Assembly: GCF_021513175.1 (NCBI RefSeq)
Contig: NZ_CP090953.1
Location: 1,941,001 to 2,005,000 of the forward strand
Length of the DNA: 64,000 bases
From: Sphingomonas sp. S2-65
GTDB taxonomy: Bacteria > Pseudomonadota > Alphaproteobacteria > Sphingomonadales > Sphingomonadaceae
Direction: 5' to 3'
A program made the position numbers and the translations under genes. Below, piece after piece: positions 701-64,000 of this stretch. Under the pieces are notes generated by a model. The model was not told where the DNA came from, did not search any database, and saw nothing but the letters and a program-made list of their open reading frames with translations. How positions within the stretch are numbered: position 1 is the stretch's first letter; each line of letters opens with the position of its first letter.

Positions 701-1699
701 CTACAGATTGAAACCGCGGACGACCCGGACCTCTCCGGAGCGGACCTCCACCAGCGCCACCGGGATTTCCCCGGAACAGCCGAAGTATTGGCCCTCGTCA
801 GCGTGTATCCCGGCCAGAACCCGCCCCTGTCGGAGCAGCCCTGCCTGGTCGGGGGTGAGGGATAGAGCCGGGATGTCGTCCAGCCCCGCCCTCAACGGCA
901 GGAGTATGCGTTCAAGCTGCCGCGCCTTAGCGGTATCGGCCAATTTGTCCAGCGGAATCGCGGATCCCAGCGTGAACGGGCCGGCCTTGATGCGGCGGAG
1001 CATGGTGACGTGGCCGACGGTGCCGAGCGCGAGCGCGATGTCGCGGGCGAGGCTGCGGATATAGGTGCCCTTGGAGACATGGGCGGTGAGGGTGATTTCA
1101 CGCAATTCCTCCCCGGCACGGGGAGGGGGACCATGCGGAGCATCGGGGAGGGGGTTTTCCCCAGGCGACTCCCTTGTGGAGCGCCCCCTCCACCCCTCGC
1201 CTTCGGCGAGCGGTCCCCCTCCCCGTACCGGGGAGGAATGAAGAGCATATATCGTCACGCTGCGGCTCGGGAGCACGACGTCCTCACCGGCGCGGGCGAG
1301 GTCGTAGGCGCGCTCGCCGTCGACCTTGAGCGCGGAATAGGCCGGGGGGACCTGCTCGATCGGGCCGGTGAAGCGCGGCAGGACGGCTTCGACCTGCGCC
1401 AGCGTCGGACGCACCGGGGATGCGGCGATCTCCACCCCCTCAAGGTCGAGCGTGTCGGTCTGCACCCCAAACGCAATCGTGAAGTCGTAGACCTTGTCGC
1501 TGTCGAGCATGCGGCCGGCGAGCTTGGTCGCCTCGCCGACTGCGATCGGCAGCACGCCGGTCGCCAGCGGATCGAGCGTGCCGCCATGCCCGACCTTGAA
1601 CTTGCCATAGCCGCCGTCGCGCAGCGCGCGCTTGACCGCGCTCACCCCCTGAGTGGAGCCGAGCCCCAGCGGCTTGTCGAGAATGATCCATCCATGCAT
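701..1699 (-). CDS. truB: tRNA pseudouridine(55) synthase TruB with an inserted repeat-encoded peptide
   Basis: TruB isomerises U55 in the T loop of tRNAs. The N-terminus (GWIILDKPLGLGST) and the catalytic region GGTLDPLATGVLPIAVGEATK, with its Asp, are intact, as is the downstream SKGTYIRSLARDI motif. The 332-residue product carries about 45 extra residues between TIYAL and REITLTAHVSKGTY. They are encoded exactly by the palindromic element at 1105-1239, read in frame. Without the insert the protein is about 287 residues. The insert falls before the SKGTYIRSLA strand, probably in a surface loop. It lies between tdk and rpsO. Confidence 0.96.
   Translation of the reverse strand: MHGWIILDKPLGLGSTQGVSAVKRALRDGGYGKFKVGHGGTLDPLATGVLPIAVGEATKLAGRMLDSDKVYDFTIAFGVQTDTLDLEGVEIAASPVRPTLAQVEAVLPRFTGPIEQVPPAYSALKVDGERAYDLARAGEDVVLPSRSVTIYALHSSPVRGGGPLAEGEGWRGRSTRESPGENPLPDAPHGPPPRAGEELREITLTAHVSKGTYIRSLARDIALALGTVGHVTMLRRIKAGPFTLGSAIPLDKLADTAKARQLERILLPLRAGLDDIPALSLTPDQAGLLRQGRVLAGIHADEGQYFGCSGEIPVALVEVRSGEVRVVRGFNL
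1105..1239. repeat. 135-bp palindromic element inside truB
   Basis: It begins ATTCCTCCCCGG and ends CCGGGGAGGAAT, perfect terminal inverted repeats. Internal arms include GGGGACC and GGTCCCCC and the CTTCGGCGAG hairpin. Its length is a multiple of three, and it adds a Gly/Pro/Arg-rich peptide to TruB without breaking the frame. Relatives occur at 21778-21912, 46203-46337 and 48754-49020. Confidence 0.85.
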
Positions 1700-1732
1700 C
1701 GCCCGGCGCCTATCGGAGCCGGCGGCGCGGCG

Positions 1733-11193: not shown

Positions 11194-11250
11194 GGCGGGG
11201 CGTGGTAAGGCGCGGTTCGCTTCTCAGGGCGAGAACCGGACAGATCCTCC

Positions 11251-11327
11251 GTCATCCCGGCCTGGAGCCGGGATCCCGCTTCTTCTAATGGCGCTGCGCA
11301 GCGGCCCCGGCTCCAGGCCGGGGTGAC
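11251..11327. repeat. GTCATCCCGGCCTGG-type palindrome
   Basis: Starts GTCATCCCGGCCTGGAGCCG and ends with the near complement CGGCTCCAGGCCGGGGTGAC, with a GCGCTGCGCAGCGG hairpin in the middle. It lies between convergent genes and may serve as a two-way terminator. It belongs to the same sequence class as the palindromes in the 63-kb tandem array. Confidence 0.8.
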
Positions 11328-11358
11328 GAAGAAAAGGCGCTCCCTCGAACTGGCTTCC

Positions 11359-20629: not shown

Positions 20630-20739
20630 TCGGTCTGGCTCCAAAACCGGTGCGGAAAGCGCGCAGCCTAGGGAATATCCACTGCATGGCAATGGTTTGT
20701 GGATGAATCGCAATGGCTGGTTGACTCGGCGGCCGGTTG

Positions 20740-20754
20740 GAACAGAATAGGAAC
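20740..20754 (+). promoter_or_regulatory. LexA (SOS) box of the imuA-imuB-dnaE2 operon
   Basis: GAACAGAATAGGAAC is a perfect GAAC-N7-GAAC direct repeat, the LexA operator form known from alphaproteobacteria. It lies 35 bp before the imuA GTG. TTGACT at 20721-20726 is a plausible -35 element, which would place the operator over the -10 region. Confidence 0.8.
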
Positions 20755-20789
20755 ATACCAGTTCCCGAGTCCCCAGTTCGAGTCGCGCC

Positions 20790-21533
20790 GTGCCAGATCC
20801 CGCTATCCTGACCCAGCTTCGCGAGCAACTCCGCGCCATGGAAACCACGGGTTTCAAGCGCCGCCCGGTGCTGCCGTTCGGCATCGGCGCGCTGGATTCG
20901 CGGCTGGGCGATGGCGGCCTCAGGCTCGATGCGCTGCACGAGGTTGCCGGCACCACTCCCGACATGGGCGACGACTGCGCCGCGACTCTGTTCATGGCCG
21001 GCATCGCCGCGCGCGCCTGGGGACCGGTGCTCTGGGTGGTGCGCCGCCACGACCTGTTCGCGCCGGGGCTGTCGCAGGTCGGGCTCGATCACAAAAGGCT
21101 GATCTATGCCGAGGCGATGGATGATGCCGAAGCCTTGGCGATCATGGAGGAAGGGCTCCGGCACCGCGGCCTGGGCGCCGTGATTGGCGAAGTGAAGCGC
21201 GTGGCGATGCCCGCCACGCGGCGGCTGCAATTGGCGGCCGAGGGCGGGCGCACCATCGCCTTGCTCATGAAGCGCCACTCGCGCGAGGGCGTCGATCCGC
21301 TCGGCGTACCCTCGGCGGCGGTGACGCGCTGGCGAGTCGCCTCGGCGCCATCCACCCCCCTGCCCGTCGAGGGCATCGGTCGGCCGCGCTGGCGGCTCAG
21401 TGTCGCGCGGCAACGCGGCGGCGATTCATTCGAACTAGAAGTGGAGGCATGCGATGCAACGGGTCGCTGCGATCTTCCTGCCAAGCTGGCCAATCGACCG
21501 GCTGCGGCGGGCGGAACGACGCGCGTCGCCTGA
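20790..21533 (+). CDS. imuA: Mutasome accessory protein ImuA
   Basis: A 247-residue RecA/SulA-like protein that works with ImuB and DnaE2 in damage-induced mutagenesis. The family pattern is clear: PFGIGALDSRLGDGGLRLDALHEV, AARAWGPVLWVVRRHDLFAPGLSQVGLD and RRLQLAAEGGRTIALLM. It starts with GTG, 35 bp after a LexA box. Its 3' end overlaps the imuB start by 80 bp in another frame. Confidence 0.9.
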   Translation: MPDPAILTQLREQLRAMETTGFKRRPVLPFGIGALDSRLGDGGLRLDALHEVAGTTPDMGDDCAATLFMAGIAARAWGPVLWVVRRHDLFAPGLSQVGLDHKRLIYAEAMDDAEALAIMEEGLRHRGLGAVIGEVKRVAMPATRRLQLAAEGGRTIALLMKRHSREGVDPLGVPSAAVTRWRVASAPSTPLPVEGIGRPRWRLSVARQRGGDSFELEVEACDATGRCDLPAKLANRPAAAGGTTRVA

Positions 21534-23443
21534 GGCGCGCGCACCTGCCGATTTCACGGCGATCGGCGCGGCCATGGCCACCGAGCATGCCAAGGGCTGC
21601 TCGGTGCCGCGCGGCGGCGGCTGGCGTCCCGGCGCGCGCTGGGCCCGCGAGGAGCGGCAGCGCCACATCGACGCGCTGCCCCAGCACCAGCGCCCGCCGA
21701 TCCGCGACCTCGGCCGCTGCGACGTCGCGGCGGAGCATGCCTTCAAGCGGATCAAGTCAGACGCGTGGGGACACCCCAAAATCCTCCCCGGAACGGGGAG
21801 GGGGACCATGCGCAGCATGGTGGAGGGGGATCGCCGCGAGCGCGCCGCCCGTGGCGCCCCCTCCACCACTCGCTGACGCGAGCGGTCCCCCTCCCCGTGT
21901 CGGGGAGGATTTAAGTGCCCCGCTCGTCACTGCACTGCGCACCGCCAACCGCCAGATCGTCGCCGCCGCTTCCCCGGCTGCCCAGACGCTCGGTATCACG
22001 CCGGGCATGGCGCTGGCCCAGGCGCGCGCGCAGCTGGCGGGGCTCGACATCCGCCCGGCCGATCCCGACGGCGACCGCGCCGATCTCGAGCAGCTGGCGA
22101 TGGCGCTCGCCCGCCGCTGGTCGCCCACCGTCGCGGTCGAGGGCGACGACACGCTGTTCCTCGACCTGACCGGGGTCGCGCATCTGCATGGCGGAGAGGT
22201 GCGCATGGCGCGGCGGCTGGTGCGCATGCTCGCCCGGCTGGGCGTCACCGCGCGGCTGGCGGTGGCCGACACCCCGGGTGCCGCCTGGGCGCTCGCGCAT
22301 GCGGATTCTGCGGGAAATCAGTGCCAAAACAGCCGAAAAAGCGCGGTTTTGCATTGTCCGCCGGGTGAACACGCCGCCCTCTTGTCCAGATTTCCCATAG
22401 AATCCCTACGGTTGGAGCCCGCCCAGATCGAGCTCCTGCACCGCTTGGGCGTCAACGAGATGCTCCAATTGACCGCCCTGCCCCGTGGTCCTTTGGTGCG
22501 CCGCTTCGGCGCCAGCATCGTCCTGCGCCTCGACCAGGCGCTCGGTCATATCGCCGAACCCTTGCGGCCCGTGATCCCTCCCGACCCCATCGCCGTCTCC
22601 CAGCGCTTCGCCGAACCCATCGCCAGCCCAGAGGCGATTACCCATTGGCTAGGCGAACTGGTTCCCCGCCTCGCGACCGAACTCGCCCAGGCCGGCCTGG
22701 GCGCGCGACGCGTAGAACTGGTCGCCGACCGCATCGACGGGGTACCGCAGCGCATCGCGATCGGCCTCTCCCGACCCAACCGCGACTCCGCCCACCTGCT
22801 CCGCCTGCTCCTGCGCCGCATCGAGGAGATCGAGCCCGGCTACGGCATCGACGCGATGACGCTCCACCTGCGCCGCAGCGAGCGGCTAGGGCCAGAGCCC
22901 TTCAACGAACGCCTCGAAACCGAAAGCCCGCCCGACCTCGCCGCGCTGGTCGACACACTGGCCACGCGCATCGGCGAGCGCCGCATGTGGCGCACCCGCC
23001 CGGTCGAAAGCGACGTCCCCGAACGCAGCGCCGCCCGCGCCCCGGTGCTGGACCCGCCCGAACGCGCCGCGGCTGCGCTCAAGGCGCAGGACATTCGCCG
23101 GTTAGACCGCAACGCTGCGCTGCATCCCTGGCACCCGGGCTGGCCCAAGCCTGCCCGGCTGCTGCGCCGCCCTGAGCGGCTCGACCATGTCATGGCCGAA
23201 CTGCCCGACCAGCCGCCCCGGCGCTTCACCTGGCGCGGCCAGTCGCACAAGGTCATCCGCGCCGACGGCCCCGAGCGCGTGTTCGGCGAGTGGTGGAAGC
23301 GCGACGCCGAACGCCACGCCGTACGCGACTATTTCCATGTCGAGGACGATGCCGGCCACCGCTACTGGCTATTCCGCTCGGGCGACGGCGAGCGCCCGGT
23401 GACCGGCGACCTCAGCTGGTACCTGCACGGGGTGTTCGGATGA
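21454..23443 (+). CDS. imuB: Mutasome Y-family polymerase-like protein ImuB, with an apparent frameshift at a repeat insertion
   Basis: ImuB is a catalytically inactive Y-family homologue that bridges ImuA, DnaE2 and the beta clamp. The N-terminus MQRVAAIFLPSWPIDRLRR lies in one frame (ATG 21454, GGAGG 6 nt upstream) up to about 21775. The rest (TLGITPGMALAQARAQLAG, LFLDLTGVAHLHGGE, RLAVADTPGAAWALA, RYWLFRSGDGERP) lies in the +1 frame to 23443. The switch falls at GGGGACACCCCAAAA beside a palindromic element. Removing one base there would restore a continuous protein through the element. It is either a real lesion or a one-base sequence error. Confidence 0.82.
21778..21912. repeat. Palindromic element inside imuB
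   Basis: Starts AAAATCCTCCCCGG and ends CGGGGAGGATTT, with internal GGGGACC, GGTCCCCC, GCGCCCCCTCCACCACTCG and GGTGGAGGGGG arms. It is the same family and the same relative reading phase as the truB copy: both read as SSP.RGGGP...GPPPR.GE(D/E)L. It is one codon shorter between core arms than the truB copy. Confidence 0.85.
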
Positions 23444-26400
23444 CCTATTCCGAGCTCCAGGTAACCACGCATTATTCGTTCCTGCGCGGCGCGTCGGCAC
23501 CAGAGGAATTGTTCATAGCAGCAGCGGCGATGGGCATGCCGGCGCTGGGCGTCACCGACCGAAACTCCGTAGCGGGGGTGGTACGCGCGCTGCACGCAGC
23601 CGAGGAAATCAAGAAAAAAGAAGGGATCTGGGTTCGCCCGGTTCTAGGGTGTCGGCTCGATCTGGTGGACGGTACGTCGCTGTTGGTTTGGCCGGAGGAC
23701 GTAGCGGCTTGGAGCCGGCTGACGCGGATGCTCACCTTGGGCAAGGCTCGTGCCGACGCGCAGCATGGCGAGAAAGGAAAATGCTTCCTCCACTGGGAGG
23801 ATGTAGCTGCTCATGCCCAGGGTTTGGTCGGTGCCTTGGTGCCAGGCTTTGCCGATGCCGCCGATCCATTGTCCATGGAGTGGATGGCCGAAATCTTTGG
23901 CGCGCGTGGCCATGTCTGCCTGACGCGGCAACGCCGTCCAGGCGATGCGATGCGACTATATCAACTGAGTAGATCCGCACGCAGCCACGGTCTTGTTCCG
24001 CTCGCGACAGGCGACGTGCTTTACCATCATCTCGACAATCGCCTGCTCCAGGACGTGATGACTGCGATCCGGGAGAAGTGCACGATCGACGAACTGGGCT
24101 TTCGCCGAGAGCGGAATGCCGATCGCCACCTCAAGTCGCCTAAAGCGATGGACTGGCGTTTCCGCCACTATCCTGAAGCGCTAGCCGCAAGCGAAGCGAT
24201 CGTGGAGCGCTGTACCTTTTCGTTGCGGGATATAAGCTACCGATACCCCGACGAAATCGTGATGAGCGGCCAAACACCGCAGCGGGCGCTGGAAAAGCTC
24301 GCCTGGGCGGCGTTGCGACAGCAATTCAGTGGCCATAAGCCCCGCGCTTATTCCAAAATGCTCCACAAGGAGCTCCGCCTCGTGAAGCGGTTCGACTATG
24401 CGCCCTACTTCCTGACGGTCAACTCAATCGTTCGATATGCACGTAGTCAGGAAATCCTGTGCCAAGGCCGTGGATCCGCGGCCAACTCGCTGATTTGTTA
24501 TGTACTCGGGGTCACTTCGATCGATCCGATCAAGCATGAGCTACTGTTTGAGCGTTTCATCTCGGGTGAACGCAACGAGCCACCCGACATCGACATCGAT
24601 TTCGAGCATGAGCGTCGCGAAGAAGTGATCCAATGGATCTATCAGACCTACGGTCATGATCATGCTGCGTTGACCGCGGTGGTCAGCCGCTTCCGTACGC
24701 GTGGCGCAGTGCGCGAGGTCGGCAAGGTTCTGGGGCTGCCCGAGGACCTGACGGGCAGCCTAGTCAGCCAGGTATGGGGCTGGTCCGAGGCCGGCGTTCC
24801 GCAGGAACATCTCGATTCGCTGAACCTCGACGCGACGGACCCTCGGCTGGCCCTGACACTCGACCTCGCGCAACAGCTGATCGGCACGCCGCGCCATTTG
24901 TCCCAGCATCCCGGCGGGTTCGTGCTGGCGCAGCATCGCCTCGACGCGATCGTGCCGATCGAGCCGGCGACGATGGCGGAGCGCCGGGTCATCGAATGGG
25001 AGAAAGACGACATCCAGATGCTCGGCCTGATGAAGGTCGATGTCCTCGGTTTGGGCATGCTCGGCTGCATGCGCCGGGCATTCGAACTGCTCGAACAGCA
25101 TAAGGGCATCCGGCTGACGCTGGCTTCACGCCAGATGCAGGACGACGACGACACAACGTTCAAGATGATCCAGAAAGCCGACACGCTCGGCACTTTCCAG
25201 ATCGAGAGCCGGGCGCAGATGTCGATGCTGCCGCGGCTGAAGCCGAGGGAATTCTATGACCTCGTTATCCAGGTCGCAATCGTACGCCCTGGGCCGATCC
25301 AGGGTGACATGGTGCACCCCTATCTTCGCCGCCGCGAAGGCAAGGAGAAGCCCGAATATCCCAAGGCTGATCTGGAAGCGGTGCTCAAAAAGACTTTTGG
25401 CGTACCGCTGTTTCAAGAGCAGGCAATGAAGGTGGCGATCGTTGGCGCCGGCTTCACCCCGGCAGAGGCGGATGGACTGCGGCGCTCGATGGCCACGTTC
25501 AAAATGACCGGCGGCGTCACGCATTTCAAAGAGAAGATGGTCGAAGGCATGGTCGCAAATGATTACGGACGCGACTTCGCGGAACGAACTTTCCGACAAA
25601 TCGAAGGCTTTGGCAGCTACGGCTTTCCCGAAAGCCATGCGGCCAGCTTCGCCAAGATCGCCTATGCCTCGTCCTGGGTGAAGTGCCACCACCCGGACAT
25701 CTTCTGCGCGGCGCTGCTCAACGCCCAGCCGATGGGCTTCTACGCGCCTGCGCAGATCGTCCGCGACGCGCGTGAGCATGGCGTGGAGGTGCACCCCGTC
25801 TGCGTCAACGCCAGTGACTGGGATACCAGCGTGATGGAGGCGACCGCCCCGCTACGCGTGCCGCCGCTGCGCTTTGCCGGTACCGAGCAGGACTGGTGCG
25901 ATCTCCGGCCGCTGCGGCTCGGCATGCGTATCGTGCATGGCTTAGACGCCAAACAGGCTGCCAAGATCATCGATGCTCGCGCCTCCGGCTCCTTCACGTC
26001 GGTCCATGATGTCTGGCGGCGTGCCGGTGTGCCGGTGGCCGCTCTGGAGAAGCTCGCGCGCGCCGATGCGTTCCAATGCTTCGGGCACAACCGGCGCGAA
26101 GCCCTATGGGCGATCAAGGCGCTGGGTGACGCCCCGCTCCCCTTGTTTGCCGCGGCCGATGTGCGCGAAGGGCAGATCCAGCCCGAGGCAGCGGAGGCGC
26201 CGGTTGCCCTAGTACCGATGACTGCCGGCCGTGAAGTGGTCGAGGATTACCGCGCCACCCAGCTGACGCTGCGCGCGCATCCGATCGCCTTTCTCCGCCA
26301 GGGACTGGCGCGCGATCGCATCACGCCGTGCGGCAAGCTGGTTGAGGAGCATGGCGAGGGAAATTTCGTGCTCAAGGACGGCGCTCGGATCACCGTCGCC

Positions 26401-26802
26401 GGCATCATCCTGGTCCGCCAGAAGCCGGGCAGCGCCAAGAGCGTGTTCGTCACGATCGAGGACGAAACCGGCATCGCCAATACGATCGTATGGGAGCGCA
26501 ATTTCCGCATCTTCCGCCGCATCATCATGTCTGCGACGATGATCGCGGTGTGCGGCCGCGTGCAGCGCGAGGGGCTGGTGGTGCACGTCATCGCCGAAGA
26601 GGTGATCGACCTCACCCATTTGCTCCGCCAGGTCGGCAATGCCGATCTGCCGCGCATGACCGCGCCATCGGACGGCGCCCGCAATGGCGGTGCCGACCCC
26701 CGCACCCGGAAACACTGGAACCCGCCGCCCTCGCGCTACGCCGCGTTGGCCGGCCCCTATGACGACACGGTCATCCCCGTGAAGTCGCGCGATTTCCACT
26801 AG
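23440..26802 (+). CDS. dnaE2: Error-prone DNA polymerase DnaE2
   Basis: A 1120-residue C-family polymerase, close to the usual DnaE2 length. The PHP domain starts at YSELQVTTHYSFLRGASAPEE. The polymerase core shows CQGRGSAANSLICY and PPDIDIDFEHERREE with catalytic aspartates. The finger and thumb region is FQEQAMKVAIVGAGFTPAEAD, and an OB-fold follows near the C-terminus. It performs damage-induced translesion synthesis with ImuA and ImuB. The ATG overlaps the imuB stop (ATGA). Its first 2 kb look less GC-rich at third positions than imuB. Confidence 0.96.
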   Translation: MTYSELQVTTHYSFLRGASAPEELFIAAAAMGMPALGVTDRNSVAGVVRALHAAEEIKKKEGIWVRPVLGCRLDLVDGTSLLVWPEDVAAWSRLTRMLTLGKARADAQHGEKGKCFLHWEDVAAHAQGLVGALVPGFADAADPLSMEWMAEIFGARGHVCLTRQRRPGDAMRLYQLSRSARSHGLVPLATGDVLYHHLDNRLLQDVMTAIREKCTIDELGFRRERNADRHLKSPKAMDWRFRHYPEALAASEAIVERCTFSLRDISYRYPDEIVMSGQTPQRALEKLAWAALRQQFSGHKPRAYSKMLHKELRLVKRFDYAPYFLTVNSIVRYARSQEILCQGRGSAANSLICYVLGVTSIDPIKHELLFERFISGERNEPPDIDIDFEHERREEVIQWIYQTYGHDHAALTAVVSRFRTRGAVREVGKVLGLPEDLTGSLVSQVWGWSEAGVPQEHLDSLNLDATDPRLALTLDLAQQLIGTPRHLSQHPGGFVLAQHRLDAIVPIEPATMAERRVIEWEKDDIQMLGLMKVDVLGLGMLGCMRRAFELLEQHKGIRLTLASRQMQDDDDTTFKMIQKADTLGTFQIESRAQMSMLPRLKPREFYDLVIQVAIVRPGPIQGDMVHPYLRRREGKEKPEYPKADLEAVLKKTFGVPLFQEQAMKVAIVGAGFTPAEADGLRRSMATFKMTGGVTHFKEKMVEGMVANDYGRDFAERTFRQIEGFGSYGFPESHAASFAKIAYASSWVKCHHPDIFCAALLNAQPMGFYAPAQIVRDAREHGVEVHPVCVNASDWDTSVMEATAPLRVPPLRFAGTEQDWCDLRPLRLGMRIVHGLDAKQAAKIIDARASGSFTSVHDVWRRAGVPVAALEKLARADAFQCFGHNRREALWAIKALGDAPLPLFAAADVREGQIQPEAAEAPVALVPMTAGREVVEDYRATQLTLRAHPIAFLRQGLARDRITPCGKLVEEHGEGNFVLKDGARITVAGIILVRQKPGSAKSVFVTIEDETGIANTIVWERNFRIFRRIIMSATMIAVCGRVQREGLVVHVIAEEVIDLTHLLRQVGNADLPRMTAPSDGARNGGADPRTRKHWNPPPSRYAALAGPYDDTVIPVKSRDFH

Positions 26803-27386: not shown

Positions 27387-27404
27387 GCGACTGACGCTCA
27401 GCCC
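27380..27404. terminator. Bidirectional hairpin spanning two convergent stop codons
   Basis: GGGCTGAGCG, loop ACTGA, CGCTCAGCCC: a perfect 10-bp stem. The left arm contains the stop codon of the 2H phosphoesterase gene and the right arm contains, on the other strand, the stop of the FAH-family gene. There is no T-run, so the efficiency is uncertain. Confidence 0.65.
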
Positions 27405-28405
27405 GCCTCCACTGCCTGTTCGATCACGCCGAAGATCGGGTGGTGCCGCTCGTCCTCCATCCAAATGCGCACGGTGTCGCCGCCCTTGAGAAATGGAGTC
27501 TCGGGCTTGCCGCGCAGGATCGTCTCCACCGTGCGCACCTCTGCGAGACAGGAATAGCCGACACCGCCCTCGGCAATCGGTTTGCCCGGGCCGCCGCCCG
27601 CGTCGCGGTTTGACACCGTGCCCGAGCCGATGATCGTGCCTGCGCCCAGCCGCCGCGTCCTGGCGGCATGGGCGATCAACGTACCGAAGTCGAACGTCAT
27701 GTCCTCGCCCGCCTCGGCACGGCCGAACGGTTGGCCGTTCAGATCGACCATCAACTTGCCATGCAGCTTGCCGTCCCGCCACCGTTCGCCGAGCGCATCG
27801 GGCGTCACGAATACCGGCGAGAAGCTGCTCGCCGGCTTGGATTGGAAGAAGCCGAATCCCTTGGCGAGCTCGCCGGGAATGAGATTGCGCAGCGAGACAT
27901 CGTTGGTGAGGCCGATCAGCCGCACCGCTGCCAGCGCCTCTTCCCGCGTCGCCCCCCGCGCCACGTCGCCGGTGACCACCACCACCTCTGCCTCCAGGTC
28001 ACAGCCCCAGGCTTCGTCGGCAAGCGGGATAGGGTCGCGCGCGCCGAGGAAACCGTCGGAACCGCCCTGGTACATCAGCGGGTCGTGCCAAAAGCTCTCC
28101 GGCATCTCGGCACCCCGCGCCTGACGCACCAGCGCGACATGGTTCACATAGGCCGAGCCATCCGCCCATTGATATGCGCGTGGCAGCGGTGCGGCGGCCA
28201 TCCGCTCATGAAAGCGCTCACGCGGGATCGTCTCGTGCGCCAGATCGGTGGCGAGATTGCGCAGATCGCCTTCAAGCAAGTCCCAGCCGTCGAGTGCGGC
28301 CTGTAGAGTCGGAGCGAGGTGACTGGCATCGGCACACCATGCCAGATCGTCGGACACCACCACGAGCTTACCGTCGCGTCCATGCTTGAGGCTAGCCAGC
28401 TTCAT
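27398..28405 (-). CDS. Fumarylacetoacetate hydrolase (FAH) family protein
   Basis: A 335-residue FAH-fold enzyme: YVNHVALVRQARGAEMPESFW and MYQGGSDGFLGARDPIPLAD at the start of the domain, metal-ligand region DLEAEVVVVTGDV, then IGLTNDVSLRNL, GSGTVSNRDAGG and SCLAEVRTVETI. Family members cleave C-C bonds in aromatic or acyl-pyruvate breakdown; this long form resembles tyrosine-pathway fumarylacetoacetases. AGGAG precedes the ATG at 28405. No other tyrosine-degradation gene is nearby, so the substrate is open. Confidence 0.87.
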   Translation of the reverse strand: MKLASLKHGRDGKLVVVSDDLAWCADASHLAPTLQAALDGWDLLEGDLRNLATDLAHETIPRERFHERMAAAPLPRAYQWADGSAYVNHVALVRQARGAEMPESFWHDPLMYQGGSDGFLGARDPIPLADEAWGCDLEAEVVVVTGDVARGATREEALAAVRLIGLTNDVSLRNLIPGELAKGFGFFQSKPASSFSPVFVTPDALGERWRDGKLHGKLMVDLNGQPFGRAEAGEDMTFDFGTLIAHAARTRRLGAGTIIGSGTVSNRDAGGGPGKPIAEGGVGYSCLAEVRTVETILRGKPETPFLKGGDTVRIWMEDERHHPIFGVIEQAVEAG

Positions 28406-28539
28406 CCACACTCTCCTTTCCCCAACCATAGTCCGGTCGCCGAAGGTGTCGAGTTCCCTCATGCGCGATGCCGCAAACCGCACAAGGACATGGACGCAGC
28501 CCCCGCAGACGATTAGGGCGCCCGCGAAAGGAAGCGGAC

Positions 28540-29829
28540 TTGGCAAACGTCGCAGTGATCGGCGCCCAATGGGGCGATGAGGGCAAGGGGAAGATCGTCG
28601 ACTGGCTGGCGGAGCGCGCCGACGTGGTCGTGCGCTTCCAGGGCGGGCACAATGCCGGCCACACGCTGGTGGTAGGCGAGAATGTCTACAAGCTCTCGCT
28701 GCTTCCTTCGGGCATCGTCCGCGGCACGCCAAGCGTGATCGGCAATGGCGTGGTCCTCGACCCCTGGGCGTTGCGCGACGAGGTTGAGCGCATTCGCGGC
28801 CAAGGCGTCGACGTCACGCCCCAGACACTGATGGTTGCCGACACTTGTCCGTTGATCCTGCCGTTTCACCGCGACCTGGATGCGCTGCGCGAAGATGCCA
28901 GCGGCGCGGGTAAGATCGGCACGACGCGGCGTGGCATCGGTCCAGCATATGAAGACAAGGTCGGTCGGCGCGCAATCCGGGTGTGCGACCTGGCGCACCT
29001 CGACGAGCTTGAGCCTCAGCTTGATCGTCTGGCTGCACATCACGACGCTTTGCGGGCGGGATTCGGAGAGCCGCCGATCGACCGTGCGGCGCTTGTCGAG
29101 GAACTGCGCGAGATCGCTGGCTTCGTGCTACCCTTTGCACAGCCAGTCTGGCGGATGCTGAACGAAGCGCGTTCGCGCGGCCGTCGCATTCTGTTCGAGG
29201 GCGCCCAAGGCGTGCTGCTCGACATCGATCACGGCACCTACCCGTTCGTGACGTCTTCCAACACCATTGCGGGAGCGGCCGCCGGCGGATCGGGTTTGGG
29301 GCCAAGCGCAGTCGGCTTCGTCCTGGGCATTGCCAAGGCCTATACTACCCGGGTGGGGTCGGGTCCGTTCCCGGCTGAGCAGGAAAACGATGTCGGCGAG
29401 CGGCTTGGCACGCGGGGCCGCGAGTTCGGGACGGTCACGGGTCGAAAGCGCCGCTGTGGGTGGCTGGACGCCGTACTGTTGCGCCAATCGGTGGCGGTAT
29501 CGGGCATCACGGGCATCGCGCTGACGAAGCTGGACGTGCTGGACGGCTTCGAGGAGATCCAGGTATGCACCGGCTACCGGCTGCGCGGCGAAGCACTCGA
29601 CTATTATCCCGCCAATGCCGCGGATCAGGCTTTGGTCGAGGCAGTGTACGAGACGATGCCAGGCTGGACGGAATCGACCGCCGGCGCGCGTAGCTGGGCC
29701 GAGCTTCCGGCCGCTGCGATCAAGTATATCCGGCGCGTCGAGGAATTGATCCAGTGCCCGGTGGCATTGGTCTCGACGAGCCCGGAGCGCGAGGACACCA
29801 TCCTGGTCCGGGATCCGTTCGCCGACTGA
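28540..29829 (+). CDS. purA: Adenylosuccinate synthetase
   Basis: Joins IMP and aspartate using GTP in the first committed step to AMP. The 429-residue length is normal. Motifs are [18 protein letters not shown] (GTP loop), GGHNAGHT (catalytic His), [35 protein letters not shown] and [10 protein letters not shown]. No ATG fits; TTG at 28540 with AAGGA upstream gives the standard N-terminus ([14 protein letters not shown]). It is divergent from the FAH gene with a 134-bp shared upstream region. Confidence 0.97.
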
Positions 29830-42738: not shown

Positions 42739-45204
42739 TCAAAGGTCCGGCAAGGTTTGGTCGGCTTCGCCCCAGCCGGCGAGCGCACGGCTGGCGGCGC
42801 GTTCGAGCAGCTCGGGCGCGTCGCGGATGGTGAAGCGCTTGGCAGATTCGAGGTCCCGCAGTTCGCTCCAGGTGATGGGCGCGGAAACTGGCGCATTCTC
42901 CCGAGCGCGGGCGACATAAGGAAGGACGGCGGTGGCGCCGCGCTGATTGCGAAGATAGTCGATGAAGATCTTGCCCTTGCGCGTGACCTTTTTGAGGTTG
43001 GCGGTGTAGCGATCGGGATCGGCTTGGGCGAGGGCGCGGGCGAAGCGCTCGGCGAAGGAGCGGACTTCGGGCCAGTCGGCTTTCGGCACGAGGGGCACGA
43101 CGACATGGACGCCCTTGCCGCCGGAGAGCAGCGGCCAACTGGTCAGGCCGATATCGGCGAGATGGCCCTTCAGGTCTTCCGCCGCCTTCTTCACGAGCTC
43201 GAAGTCTAGCCCCTCGTCGGGATCGAGATCGAAGACGAGGCGGTCCGGCTTCTCGATGTCTGCGACCAGGCTGCCCCAGCCATGGAATTCGATCGTGCCC
43301 ATCTGGACGCAGGCCATGATGCCGTCGACATCGTCCAGATATAGGTAGGGCTGCACCGAGCCATCCTTCTCGCGTACGTCGACGTGGTGGACGTCCTCAC
43401 CGAAGCTGCCGGCATCGTGCTTCTGGAAGAAGCAATGCTTGGCGCGGCCCTGGGGACAGCGGACCAGGCTGATCGGCCGGTTGGCGAGCCAGCGCAGCGC
43501 AGCGGGGGCGATCGCCTGGTAATAATCGGCGAGTTCGCCCTTGGTAAGACCAGACTCGGGGTAGATCACGCGCTCGCGATTGCTGATCTTGATGTGGGTC
43601 TCGGGCAGCGTCGGCGCTGCGGGTAGCGGCGTGGGTGTTTCCGGGACGACCTCACTGGCCTTCTTGTCCTCGCGCAGGCCGAGGAAGCTGGCGTGGCGGA
43701 CGACATTCTCGGCGGTAAATTCGGCAAAGGCGATTTCGGCCACGAGCTCTGGCTTGATCCACTGCGCGCCGCGGGCCTCCGCCCTGGGTACAGCAGCGGC
43801 GGGCTTGTCTGTCGCGATCTTGTCGAAGCGTTCGCGCAGGTCGTGGAGCGTAGCCGTGCTGAAGCCGGTGCCGACCTTGCCGGCATAGCGAAGGCCCTCG
43901 GGCGCGTTTAGCCCGAGCAGCAGCGAGCGGAAGCCGCGTCCCTTGGCGGCGGAGGGCGTCCAGCCGATGATCACGAATTCCTGCCGCCGCGTACATTTGA
44001 TCTTGAGCCAGGACTTGGTGCGGGTGCCGCGGTAGGGCGCGTCGGCGCGTTTGGAGACGACGCCCTCATATCCTTGGGCACACATAGTTTCGAACAACTT
44101 TTCGCCGTTGCCGATGATGTGTTCGGAGAATTGGATACGCGGGTTGACGTTCTCGATGACGCTGCGGAGACGTTCCTTGCGCTCTAGCTGGGGGAGCTTG
44201 GTGACGTCCTCGCCGCCACTTGCCAGCAGGTCGAAAGCGAAGAGAGTCAGGTCGTTACCGCCAGCAGAGATGGCTTCCTGGAGCGTCGAGAAGTCGGGCT
44301 TGCCGTCCTTGAAGGCGACGATTTCGCCGTCGAGGAGCGTTCCGGACGGCAATTTGGCGGCGGATTGCGCGATTCCGGGAAATTTTTCCGTCCAATCCAG
44401 CCCTGAACGCGTGTAAATCCGCGCGGATTCACCGTTCGACGCGACCAGCGCGCGGTATCCGTCATACTTTACTTCGTGCAGCCAGGCGGTGCCGGTGGGG
44501 ACGGTGTCGACCAGCGTAGCGAGCTGCGGGGCAGTGAAATCGGGGAGCTTGACGCTGGCTGCGCGCTTGCGCGGGGATGACGGAGCGGCAGGCGCGGCAC
44601 GGGTAGCCGGCTTCTTCTTGGCGACCTTCTTGCCCTCGGCGATTTCCTGCATGGTGCGCCCGGTGTGGACGCTGGTCAGGCCGGTTTCGACCAGCACGTC
44701 GGTCGCACCGGCAAAGCCGTCGTTGATCTTGCGCAGCAGCCAGTTCTCGTTCTTCTCCTTGCCCCGGGGCTTGAGGCGGATCAGCAGCCACTCGCCCTTC
44801 ATCCGCTCGCCATCCAGGCGAAAATGGAGATGGCCTTTCTCCAGGTCCTTGGCCGACTTGCCCTCGATCGGCTCCCAGAAACCATCATCCCACAGCATGA
44901 CCGTGCCGCCGCCATATTCGCCCTTGGGGATCGTCCCCTCGAAATCGGCGTAGGAGAGCGGGTGGTCTTCGGTGCGGACGGCGAGGCGCTTTTCGTCGGG
45001 GTCGAGGCTCGGCCCGCGGGTGACCGCCCAGCTCTTGAGCACGCCGTCGACTTCGAGGCGGAAGTCCCAGTGCAGGCGCGTGGCGTCGTGCTTCTGGACG
45101 ATGAAGCGGTTGCCGCCGGTCGAGGCTACCGCACCCGAAGGCTCGGCGGTCTTGGTGAAGTCGCGCTTGGCATTGTATCGGGCGAGAGGGTCCAGCTTGG
45201 CCAT
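42739..45204 (-). CDS. ligD: NHEJ DNA ligase D
   Basis: A multidomain end-joining enzyme of about 821 residues. The 3'-phosphoesterase domain (about 30-165) contains QKHDATRLHWDFRLEVDGVL and GTIPKGEYGGGTVMLWD. The ATP-dependent ligase domain has its nucleotidyl lysine in WLHEVKYDGYRALV (K246). The C-terminal polymerase domain starts near 560 (VIYPESGLTKGELADYY) and has the catalytic LVFDLDPDEGLDF. A GTG at 45213 overlapping the ku stop (GTGA) is an equally possible start. It works with the Ku protein encoded just upstream. Confidence 0.96.
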   Translation of the reverse strand: MAKLDPLARYNAKRDFTKTAEPSGAVASTGGNRFIVQKHDATRLHWDFRLEVDGVLKSWAVTRGPSLDPDEKRLAVRTEDHPLSYADFEGTIPKGEYGGGTVMLWDDGFWEPIEGKSAKDLEKGHLHFRLDGERMKGEWLLIRLKPRGKEKNENWLLRKINDGFAGATDVLVETGLTSVHTGRTMQEIAEGKKVAKKKPATRAAPAAPSSPRKRAASVKLPDFTAPQLATLVDTVPTGTAWLHEVKYDGYRALVASNGESARIYTRSGLDWTEKFPGIAQSAAKLPSGTLLDGEIVAFKDGKPDFSTLQEAISAGGNDLTLFAFDLLASGGEDVTKLPQLERKERLRSVIENVNPRIQFSEHIIGNGEKLFETMCAQGYEGVVSKRADAPYRGTRTKSWLKIKCTRRQEFVIIGWTPSAAKGRGFRSLLLGLNAPEGLRYAGKVGTGFSTATLHDLRERFDKIATDKPAAAVPRAEARGAQWIKPELVAEIAFAEFTAENVVRHASFLGLREDKKASEVVPETPTPLPAAPTLPETHIKISNRERVIYPESGLTKGELADYYQAIAPAALRWLANRPISLVRCPQGRAKHCFFQKHDAGSFGEDVHHVDVREKDGSVQPYLYLDDVDGIMACVQMGTIEFHGWGSLVADIEKPDRLVFDLDPDEGLDFELVKKAAEDLKGHLADIGLTSWPLLSGGKGVHVVVPLVPKADWPEVRSFAERFARALAQADPDRYTANLKKVTRKGKIFIDYLRNQRGATAVLPYVARARENAPVSAPITWSELRDLESAKRFTIRDAPELLERAASRALAGWGEADQTLPDL

Positions 45205-45209
45205 CCGCG

Positions 45210-46139
45210 TCACGCCCGCTTGCGCGCCGGCGCCTTTTTGGCGGCGGTGCTGCGGCTGCCCGCACGCGGGGCCGCAGGCTTGTCATTGGCGGCCTTGGGC
45301 GTGCTCTTCTTGGCCGGCGCCTTCTTGACCTCCGGGTCCTTGGCGGCGCCGGGCTTCTCGAGCGACTTCTTGAGCGCGGCCATCAGATCGACCACGTTGG
45401 AGCCGCGGCTGGGCGCCTCGTCGCCGACGTCCTCCAGGATCTTCTTGCCCTTGGCCTTTTTCTTGCGCTCGATCAGTTCCTTGAGCGCGTCGACATAGCG
45501 GTCGTGGAATTCCTGAGGATCGAACTTCGACGCCTTCTTGTCGATCAGCGTGGTGGCCAAATCGAGCAGTTCGGCATCCGGCTCCGAATCGGGAATGTCG
45601 CGAAAATAACCCTGGGCCTTGTTGACCTCGTCAGCGTAGCGCAGCGTCTCCAGCACCATGCCGCGGCCGCACGGCTTGAGGCTGACGACATATTCGCGGC
45701 CCCGCATGGCGAGCTGGCCGAGCCCGACTTTTCGGGCGCGGCGGAGCGCTTCGCGCAGCACGATGAAGGCTTCCTCGGCGAGGTCGTCTGCGGGCACGAC
45801 GAAATAGGGCTTCTCGTAATAGAGCACGTCGATCTCGTCGGCGTCGACGAACTGGGTGAGCTCCAGAGTCTTTTTGGACTCGAGCTTCACCGCGTCGATC
45901 TCGTCCTGCTCGAGCAGGACATACTCGCCCTTCTCCACCTCGAAGCCCTTCACGATCTCGTCGACATCGACCGCGCCGATGCCGGGGGCGACCTTTTCGT
46001 ACTTGATCCGCTTGCCGCTGGGTTCGTGGATCTGGTGGAAGCTGATCTGCGCGCCGGATTTGGTGGCGGAATAGATTTCGACGGGAATGGAGACCAGCGC
46101 CAACCGGATCTGTCCCTGCCAATAGGCGCGTGCGGCCAT
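45210..46139 (-). CDS. ku: NHEJ DNA end-binding protein Ku
   Basis: A 309-residue bacterial Ku. The core domain shows YWQGQIRLALVSIPVEIYSAT, FHQIHEPSGKRIKYEKV and YVLLEQDEIDAVKLESKKTLEL, and MVLETLRYADEV lies at its C-terminal part. A Lys/Ala-rich tail of about 60 residues follows, as in other Ku proteins that bind DNA or LigD. The ATG at 46139 has GGAG upstream. It is directly upstream of ligD. Confidence 0.95.
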   Translation of the reverse strand: MAARAYWQGQIRLALVSIPVEIYSATKSGAQISFHQIHEPSGKRIKYEKVAPGIGAVDVDEIVKGFEVEKGEYVLLEQDEIDAVKLESKKTLELTQFVDADEIDVLYYEKPYFVVPADDLAEEAFIVLREALRRARKVGLGQLAMRGREYVVSLKPCGRGMVLETLRYADEVNKAQGYFRDIPDSEPDAELLDLATTLIDKKASKFDPQEFHDRYVDALKELIERKKKAKGKKILEDVGDEAPSRGSNVVDLMAALKKSLEKPGAAKDPEVKKAPAKKSTPKAANDKPAAPRAGSRSTAAKKAPARKRA

Positions 46140-46202: not shown

Positions 46203-46337
46203 AATCCTCCCCCGCAAGGGGGAGGGGAACCGCGGCGCAGGCGCGTGGTGGAGGGGTAATCGCCACAAGCCGTGTCGCCCGTGGACACTACCCCTCCACC
46301 AGCTTCGCTGGTCCCCCTCCCCCTCCGGGGGAGGATT
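46203..46337. repeat. 135-bp palindromic element between ku and pdxH
   Basis: Starts AATCCTCCCCC and ends GGGGGAGGATT, with GGTGGAGGGGTA/TACCCCTCCACC inner arms and an AGCTTCGCT hairpin. It has the same length as the truB copy. It occupies half of the divergent 268-bp ku-pdxH spacer, so it sits among both promoters. Confidence 0.85.
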
Positions 46338-46407
46338 TGGGAAACTGGCGGGGGAGGATCGAAGTGCGCCCCTCCCCCTTTTGGGGGAGATTGTGTAAGG
46401 GGCTCGC

Positions 46408-62385: not shown

Positions 62386-62976
62386 ATGAAGAAGCTCGCC
62401 CCGCTCCTCGCCCTTCCGCTTGCCGCGCTGCTGTCGGGCTGCATCTCGTTCGGCGCGAAGACGCCCGAATCGCTGCTGACGCTGAACCCGGCGGTGCAGC
62501 TGCCGGTGGGCGAATCGCAGCGCTCCAACATCGCCGCGACCATCACCATTTCGGTGCCCTCGGTTCCGCAGGAGCTCGCCGCGTCGCGGGTTCCGGTGCG
62601 CTCGGGCGGGACGGCGGTCGCGTACGTCAAGGACGCGCAATGGGTGGAGCGGCCTTCGCAGCTGTTCGCACGGCTGCTCGGCGACACGATCACCGCGCAG
62701 ACCGGGCGGCTGGTGCTGAGCACGCGGCAATCGCAGCTCGACCCCGGCGCGTACCTCCAGGGCGAGCTGCGCGCCTTCGGCATCGATGCCGACACCAACG
62801 AGGCGGTGGTGACCTATGACGCGGCGCTGACCCGCGGGCCCGAGACCGTGATCGAGAAGCGCCGCTTCGAGGCGCGCGTGCCGGTGGCGGCGATCGAGCC
62901 GGCGCCGGTGGGCGCGGCGCTCAACCAAGCCGCCAACCAGGTTTCGGCACAAGTGGCAGAGTGGGTCGGGCGCTGA
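62386..62976 (+). CDS. ABC-type transport auxiliary lipoprotein (PqiC-like)
   Basis: A 196-residue lipoprotein of the COG3218 family often found with Mce/Mla operons. The signal peptide ends in LLSGC (MKKLAPLLALPLAALLSGC). Family segments are VPSVPQELAASRVPVRSGGTAVAYVKDAQWVERPSQLFARLLGDTI. Its last ~38 codons are copied three more times downstream in the tandem array. The ATG at 62386 lies 8 bp after mlaD. Confidence 0.9.
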   Translation: MKKLAPLLALPLAALLSGCISFGAKTPESLLTLNPAVQLPVGESQRSNIAATITISVPSVPQELAASRVPVRSGGTAVAYVKDAQWVERPSQLFARLLGDTITAQTGRLVLSTRQSQLDPGAYLQGELRAFGIDADTNEAVVTYDAALTRGPETVIEKRRFEARVPVAAIEPAPVGAALNQAANQVSAQVAEWVGR

Positions 62977-63025
62977 GGCGCTAGGGCGGTACGGGAGGGC
63001 GCGGAGGCTCCACAACTCCGCCGCG

Positions 63026-63126
63026 GTCACCCGGCCTGGTGCCGGGGTCCACTTCCCGCCTGCGATCCCTTTGCCGATCGTTCGGCGCCTGCCGCGCGGT
63101 GGACCCCGGCACAAGGCCGGGGTGAC
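63026..63126. repeat. GTCACCCGGCC palindrome, array copy 1
   Basis: Left arm GGTGCCGGGGTCCAC and right arm GTGGACCCCGGCAC are complementary (TG-to-CA ends match) and are flanked by GTCACCCGGCC and GGCCGGGGTGAC. The middle has GCGCCTGCCGCGCG. Equivalent copies lie at 63303-63405, 63590-63692 and 63873-63974. Confidence 0.8.
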
Positions 63127-63146
63127 GGCTTGGGGGTGGCTTAGCG

Positions 63147-63257
63147 GACTTCAAGGCGCGGGTGCCGGTGGCGATCGAGCCGGCATCGGTGGGCGCGGCG
63201 CTCAACCAGGCTGCCGACCAGGTTTCGGCGCAAGTGGCGGAGTGGGTCGGGCGTTGA
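63147..63257 (+). pseudogene. Duplicated C-terminal fragment of the auxiliary lipoprotein, copy 2
   Basis: Reads DFKARVPVAIEPASVGAALN and continues to AQVAEWVGR followed by a stop, in the original frame. It lacks one Ala codon relative to the intact gene and has no start codon or ribosome-binding site. Confidence 0.8.
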
Positions 63258-63302
63258 GGCGCTAGGGCGGTACGGGCGCGGAGGCTCCACAACTCCGCCG
63301 CG

Positions 63303-63405
63303 GTCACCCGGCCTGGTGCCGGGGTCCACTTTCCCCCCTGCGATGCCCTTTGCCGATTGTTCGGCGCCTGCCGCGCGGTGGACCCCGGCACAAGGCCGGG
63401 GTGAC
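63303..63405. repeat. GTCACCCGGCC palindrome, array copy 2
   Basis: Nearly identical to copy 1, with GGTGCCGGGGTCCAC and GTGGACCCCGGCAC arms and the GATTGTTCGGCGCCTGCCGC centre. Confidence 0.8.
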
Positions 63406-63425
63406 GGCTTGGGGTTGGCTTGGCG

Positions 63426-63539
63426 GACTTCGAGGCGCGGGTGCCGGTGGCGGTGATCGCGCCGGCATTGGTGGGCGCGGCGCTAAACCAGGTTGCCCAT
63501 CAGGTTTCGGGGCAGGTGGCGGAGTGGGTCGGGCGTTGA
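63426..63539 (+). pseudogene. Duplicated C-terminal fragment of the auxiliary lipoprotein, copy 3
   Basis: Reads DFEARVPVAVIAPALVGAAL and continues to GQVAEWVGR and a stop, still in frame but with several changed residues. It has no start codon or ribosome-binding site. Confidence 0.8.
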
Positions 63540-63589
63540 GGCGCCAGGGCGGTACGGTAAGGCGCGGAGGCTCCACAACTCCCGCCGCG

Positions 63590-63692
63590 GTCACCACGGC
63601 CCGGTGCTGGGGCCGCTTCCCGGCCTGCGATGCCCTTTGCCGATTGTCCGGCGCCTGCCGCGCGGTGGACCCCGGCACAGGGCCGGGGTGAC
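63590..63692. repeat. GTCACC palindrome, array copy 3
   Basis: The left arm is degraded (CACGGCCCGGTGCTGGGGCCG), while the right arm GTGGACCCCGGCAC remains intact, so the hairpin is weaker than in copies 1 and 2. Confidence 0.7.
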
Positions 63693-63713
63693 GGCTTTGG
63701 GGGTGGCTTGGCG

Positions 63714-63836
63714 GACTTCGAGGCGCGGGTGTCGGTGGTGGTGATAGCGCCGGCACTGGTGGGCGCGGCGCTGAATCAGGCCGCCAACCAGGTTCCGGCA
63801 GGTGGCGGAGTGGGTCGGGCGTTGGCGCTAGAGCGG
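63714..63836 (+). pseudogene. Duplicated C-terminal fragment of the auxiliary lipoprotein, copy 4
   Basis: Starts DFEARVSVVVIAPALVGAAL, but a 4-nt deletion near 63800 (GTTCCGGCAGGTGG) shifts the frame and removes the stop. It is the most decayed copy. Confidence 0.75.
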
Positions 63837-63872
63837 TGCGGGAGGGCGCCGAGGCTCCACAACTCCGACGCG

Positions 63873-63974
63873 GGCACCCGGCCTGGTGCCGGGGTCCGCT
63901 TCCTCGCCTGCGATGCCTTTGCCGATCGTTCGGCGCCTGCCGCGCGGTGGACCCCGGCACAAGGCCAGGGTGAC
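63873..63974. repeat. GCACCCGGCC palindrome, array copy 4
   Basis: The left arm GGTGCCGGGGTCC and right arm GTGGACCCCGGCAC still pair over most of their length; the last bases read AGGCCAGGGTGAC. Confidence 0.7.
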
Positions 63975-64000
63975 GGCTTAGGGGTGGCTTGGCGGACGGG

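Follow-up and report, generated by a model that had tools for sequence, protein, structure and literature searches.

A frame break within a multi-copy palindromic element in imuB of a Sphingomonas-related genome with two imuA-imuB-dnaE2 cassettes

The imuA-imuB-dnaE2 locus and the two frames of imuB

The window analysed here is a stretch of 64,000 nucleotides (C1:1941001-2005000) of a 3.80-Mb genome (G000; single contig, completeness 100), the closest named relatives of which are Sphingomonas. It contains imuA, imuB, and dnaE2 in that order, all on the plus strand, and was compared with two sister species, Sphingomonas sp. IC-56 (locus L001) and S. xinjiangensis (L002), and with a metagenomic protein (P0001). 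ImuB proteins are characterized by a clamp-binding motif and missing catalytic acids. The features of the locus are:

20740-20754, plus strand: GAAC-N7-GAAC box 5′ of imuA (motif match)
20790-21533, plus strand: imuA (open reading frame; NCBIfam NF033429 ImuA, E 2.9e-16, under the curated cut-off)
21454-21876, plus strand: native imuB frame of 140 codons, terminating within the palindromic element (open reading frame and identity to sister species)
21779-21912, plus strand: palindromic element with arms at 21779-21807 and 21884-21912 (repeat and fold analysis)
21856-21868, plus strand: stretch in which the frame changes over relative to intact P0001 (inferred from the P0001 protein)
21869-23443, plus strand: remainder of imuB in the downstream frame, with IMS, IMS_C, and DUF6504 (open reading frame and Pfam)
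23440-26802, plus strand: dnaE2, its start overlapping the imuB stop as ATGA (open reading frame and domain matches)

The box upstream of imuA has the form GAAC-N7-GAAC, which we take to be the alphaproteobacterial LexA-type box; the window holds 2 such boxes against 1.55 expected by chance, and it is only the position of the one at 20740-20754 that argues for a real site.

Native imuB starts at ATG 21454, six bases downstream of a GGAGG at 21443-21447, and ends at a stop codon at 21874-21876, whereas Pfam places the IMS, IMS_C, and DUF6504 domains in another frame, which ends at 23443; the N-terminus of ImuB and the rest of the protein are in different frames, as the original prediction had it. 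Open reading frame analysis likewise bears out that the element lies between the two halves and is open in the downstream frame, which runs through it from ATG 21449 to 23443 (664 residues). No Pfam domain was found in the 140-residue product of the native frame (21454-21876). Over 106 codons the native upstream frame encodes a protein 90.6% and 86.8% identical to those of the two sister species, compared with 79.2% to both for the overlapping frame, and is therefore the coding one; its pairwise dN/dS is 0.31 and 0.37. The comparison with sister species that had been called for finds their imuB to be one continuous gene in which the insert is translated. As sequenced, imuB of the window is thus broken in association with the palindromic element.

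The palindromic element in the genome and in imuB of relatives

The element is 134 nt long, with 29-nt arms that are 93% complementary and 76 nt between them, and it folds as a single long hairpin (−116.4 kcal/mol, z −12.4). The region 20700-23500 has no match in Rfam up to E 1. A search of its own genome gave at least 85 matches (from 40 scored of 116 candidates), which merge into at least 46 places; 46 places were counted in genome G209 and 29 in G289, fragments included, and the full-length copies number 31, 29, and 13, respectively. These family counts cover the retrieved stretches, 11 further stretches of G289 being left out. By eye, the arm begins with AAATCCTCCCC in both the window copy and the family consensus, and neither an unpaired CGTC nor TGTC or CCTC, the tag of CGTC-type REPs, is seen at one end; the other REP trait, an inverted dimer with a spacer of 20-100 bp, is present. 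Elsewhere in the window, an inverted pair with CGTCATCCCGG at 11247-11331 looks like a classical CGTC-type REP dimer, and 62846-63997 is a tandem repeat of ~282 bp with at least 4 copies.

At least two members of the family are clearly intragenic in the window genome, as judged by a rough estimate of GC by codon position: one in truB, in frame, as originally noted, and one in imuB, out of frame. In truB (704-1732, minus strand) the in-frame element occupies 1104-1237 and has the orientation opposite to that in the IC-56 orthologue (L163), despite which the open frame is 343 codons long in both. A third host gene is ligD of IC-56 (ORF o217), residues 219-262 of which match, in translation, the element copy at 46203-46338 of the window. 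The window's own ligD (42742-45282, minus strand) has at that place a different and shorter linker that does not have the element-coded insert of IC-56, an insertion difference in another repair gene.

Occupation of imuB by the element is common among relatives. It lies at the same imuB site in IC-56 and S. xinjiangensis, where one frame runs throughout, and P0001 carries it in frame and, as judged from its residues, in the window's orientation. The Sphingomonas imuB loci examined, 46 in all and including the two sister species, comprised the best 19 of 80 (L001-L019, all titled Sphingomonas) and 27 of a second set of 30, from which L081 (the window) and L082 and L083 (repeats of L001 and L002) were left out. 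The conserved N-terminus shares the open frame of the rest of the gene in 45 of them, the remaining locus, L105, ending at a contig end. With a threshold of 20 bits, against at most 3.5 bits for shuffled linkers, the element was found in 17 of the 46 linkers (16 distinct ones, L094 and L003 being alike); 6 copies are oriented as in the window, 7 are opposite, and 4 are undecided.

An AlphaFold2 model of IC-56 ImuB built from 24 sequences, of only moderate quality overall (mean pLDDT 69.4, pTM 0.48), predicts residues 86-153 to be disordered (pLDDT below 50) and the first 20 residues to be ordered (pLDDT 87-90). The element codes for residues about 109-154, between the strands at 4-8 and 157-162. 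A disordered linker of this predicted kind would account for the freedom of sequence and orientation alongside a fixed frame. Other repeat-like peptides stand in frame in the imuB linkers of L102, L104, L105, L106, L108, and L110 (e.g., SSRRKPGSS...MDPGFRRDDE); several families of repeats thus seem to accumulate in the linker. In L084 and L085 a short SGRSGEE before PLVT looks, by eye, like a leftover right arm.

Place of the frame break and orientation of the element

The residues of P0001 match the native frame of the window up to R-G at 21850-21855 and its downstream frame from L at 21869; to judge from this protein, the two genes must differ in length across 21856-21868, by a number of bases that is not a multiple of three. 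For the left arm, the native frame is in use in all four sequences (window, IC-56, S. xinjiangensis, and P0001), and since both arms are read in the frames of the relatives, the fault lies in the middle of the element and not at its left edge. The switch had originally been mapped to that edge, at GGGGACACCCCAAAA, about 80 bases away from the changeover, and put down to a single extra base in a homopolymer run. Neither part is supported: IC-56, with its gene in frame, has G4, C4, and A4 runs of the same length at the left edge, and each run of the window is at consensus length in the element family, so that a left-edge homopolymer was rejected as the cause. The same applies to every homopolymer run of 4 or more in the window copy, according to an alignment of 41 of the 73 full-length copies (at least 100 bits, plus the IC-56 imuB copy; window included), and the length differences of the window copy from the consensus sit in the variable spacer.

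The imuB element of the window runs the other way from its counterparts in both sister species, its reverse complement being the better match to S. xinjiangensis (83.9% vs. 72.3% direct) and to IC-56 (77.4% vs. 69.5%). Among 21 listed pairs of orthologous copies, 20 of which were scored, 6 are flipped (at 4 sites), 12 have the same orientation, and 2 are ambiguous. Unrelated copies, however, give a background (2608 pairs) with a median of 72% and a 95th percentile of 82%, and when copies are ranked by likeness to those of the window, the truB orthologue is 60th of 72 and the imuB copies of S. xinjiangensis and IC-56 are 4th and 40th. Because orthologues resemble each other barely more than unrelated copies do, in-place inversion looks the same as replacement here, and it was set aside as a general property of the family. 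The imuB copy of the window scores 102, 97.5, and 92.5 against other family copies and 91 and 68 against the orthologous imuB copies, as replacement would give; this sign is weak, since the imuB copies of IC-56 and S. xinjiangensis are likewise fairly close to unrelated copies.

In a tree of the C-terminal part the window is joined with P0004 (support 96), and P0001, IC-56, and S. xinjiangensis stand apart from the window group (89), IC-56 with S. xinjiangensis (65). P0001 thus shares the window's orientation but groups with the two sister species, so the flip probably occurred in the line of IC-56 and S. xinjiangensis. Inversion in the window line was accordingly set aside as the cause of the break, since P0001, to judge from its protein, stays in frame with the element oriented as in the window.

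The second cassette, explanations of the break, and known systems

Besides imuB of the window, a search for the IMS domain found two further loci in the genome, one of them a full-length match of 177.9 bits that we infer to be DinB-like. The other is the imuB of a second complete imuA-imuB-dnaE2 cassette, which lies at about C1:2295979-2302445 (L217 3480-9946) and encodes ImuA (243 residues), ImuB (514 residues, counted from the native start), and an error-prone DnaE2 (1114 residues). Its ImuB has a short linker without such an insert and is about 45% identical to the first ImuB; GAAC-N7-GAAC boxes stand at L217 3435-3449 and 6126-6140, 2 being found against 0.15 expected. Relatives of this ImuB, at 82% and 70%, occur in two of seven other genomes searched, and IC-56 and S. 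xinjiangensis hold additional, different imuB-like genes, 46-47% identical to it. Because a second complete cassette is present, the loss of the SOS mutasome envisaged in the original prediction does not follow from the break; a loss of imuB would probably be buffered by this cassette. Translation of dnaE2 might suffer too, since its start overlaps the imuB stop.

We consider it fairly probable that the break is a recent, buffered inactivation caused when a rapidly evolving palindrome inside the gene changed its length. The insert would be a member of a dispersed, REP-dimer-like palindrome family that is common in Sphingomonas imuB, where it would be translated as in-frame filler of a disordered linker that separates the first strand of the Y-family fold from the remainder. 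In the lineage of the window the copy would have altered its length mid-element by a number not divisible by three, through slippage or template switching in the hairpin or through replacement by another genomic copy. The two halves of ImuB would then have come to lie out of frame, with the protein from the native start ending after 140 residues inside the element, and the second imuA-imuB-dnaE2 cassette would have buffered the loss. The recency of the loss is suggested by the C-terminal part, for which dN/dS is 0.143 and 0.165 in comparisons with the window and 0.102 between the sister species; three-point arithmetic assigns ~0.19 to the window side and 0.08 and 0.13 to the others. The C-terminal part of the window therefore has a slightly raised dN/dS and is still constrained, and as constraint persists, the loss would be recent.

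The main rival, possible although we give it clearly less weight, is an error of assembly or base calling inside the GC-rich hairpin, with imuB intact in the organism; the sequence comes from a single assembly. The very stable hairpin is a plausible spot for base-calling trouble, the 511 codons contain no other lesion and continue under constraint, and every relative that could be tested is in frame. The assembly, however, is a single complete contig, the homopolymer runs are at family consensus length, and a synteny control against IC-56 revealed no other interior frame break. In that control, two-frame matches were obtained for 4 of 49 IC-56 genes on the window and for 6 of 46 window genes on IC-56; apart from imuB, these matches are attributed to an antisense ORF, to stop-to-stop ORFs that extend upstream, or to repeats matched a second time, presumptively so for 27401-28813, where the first 130 residues match at 68% and the remainder at 94%. 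The list of IC-56 genes does not include imuB, presumably lost in a GC-based selection; imuB was covered by the list of window genes and by an unselected run.

A further reading, which we regard as improbable, makes the palindrome in the imuB linker an evolutionary switch, the turnover of which (by a change of orientation, by slippage, or by conversion with any of the dozens of copies in the genome) would repeatedly alter the length and turn the adaptor off and on in lineages with a spare cassette. A working imuB rescued by frameshifting at the element, whether ribosomal or transcriptional, is very doubtful. The native frame does contain CCC followed by T at 21859-21862, a +1-prone context, and a strong hairpin surrounds it, but the relatives do not conserve this context as such, since imuB of IC-56, S. 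xinjiangensis, and P0001 is simply in frame, and the longest homopolymer run is 5; no positive sign was found of the programmed frameshifting that the original prediction named as one of two outcomes. Equally hard to credit is a full-length protein with a new N-terminus of ~140 residues from ATG 21449: that frame is open to 23443 and might be taken by a gene caller for an intact imuB, but its ATG has the GGAGG only one base away (six for ATG 21454), it is less conserved (79.2% vs. 86.8-90.6% for the native frame), and its product would not have the first strand and helix, predicted with a mean pLDDT of 87-90. ATG 21449, five bases 5′ of the true start, is rather an annotation trap, since it opens an apparently intact imuB of 664 residues, the first ~140 of which are out of frame relative to native ImuB.

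Overall, imuB of the window is a well-bounded oddity, for which recent, buffered inactivation is the likeliest account and an assembly error the chief competitor. It illustrates the cost of translated palindromes: the linker tolerates many sequences, in either orientation, but no change of length other than by multiples of three.

The locus resembles known imuA-imuB-dnaE2 mutasome cassettes in gene order, in the domains of ImuB, and in the upstream GAAC-N7-GAAC box; it differs in that imuB has no intact frame, being spread over two, and in the presence of a second complete cassette in the genome. Among palindromic repeats, the closest parallel is with intragenic REPs, often inverted dimers with spacers of 20-100 bp, which according to Di Nocera et al. 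(2013, PMC3733652) occur inside truB of the sphingomonad-related E. litoralis and S. alaskensis (names as printed) and inside genes for DNA synthesis and repair, dnaE2 among them. Short inverted-dimer palindromes in repair genes and truB are common to both, but the family described here does not have the CGTC tag at its arm ends, the imuB copy of the window is out of frame, and imuB does not appear as a host gene in the excerpts of that paper; with the element in imuB, truB, and IC-56 ligD, the published pattern, which covers truB and repair genes, now includes the partner of DnaE2. Rickettsia palindromic elements, described in the review PMC10969869 as palindromes of ~100-150 bp translated in frame inside unrelated genes, are similar in that members of the present family are translated in frame in imuB of relatives, truB, and IC-56 ligD; they come from another organism and would be a different sequence family, and the window copy breaks the frame of its host. 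With the Correia elements of Neisseria, for which the same review cites inversion, the family shares the occurrence of palindromic repeats in opposite orientations at one site, although here the opposite orientations are seen only between species, where inversion and replacement look alike. Among the titles and abstract openings listed in a literature search, none describes the imuB case found here. Both this type of insert and its preference for such host genes have precedents; the frame-broken copy in imuB is a new instance.
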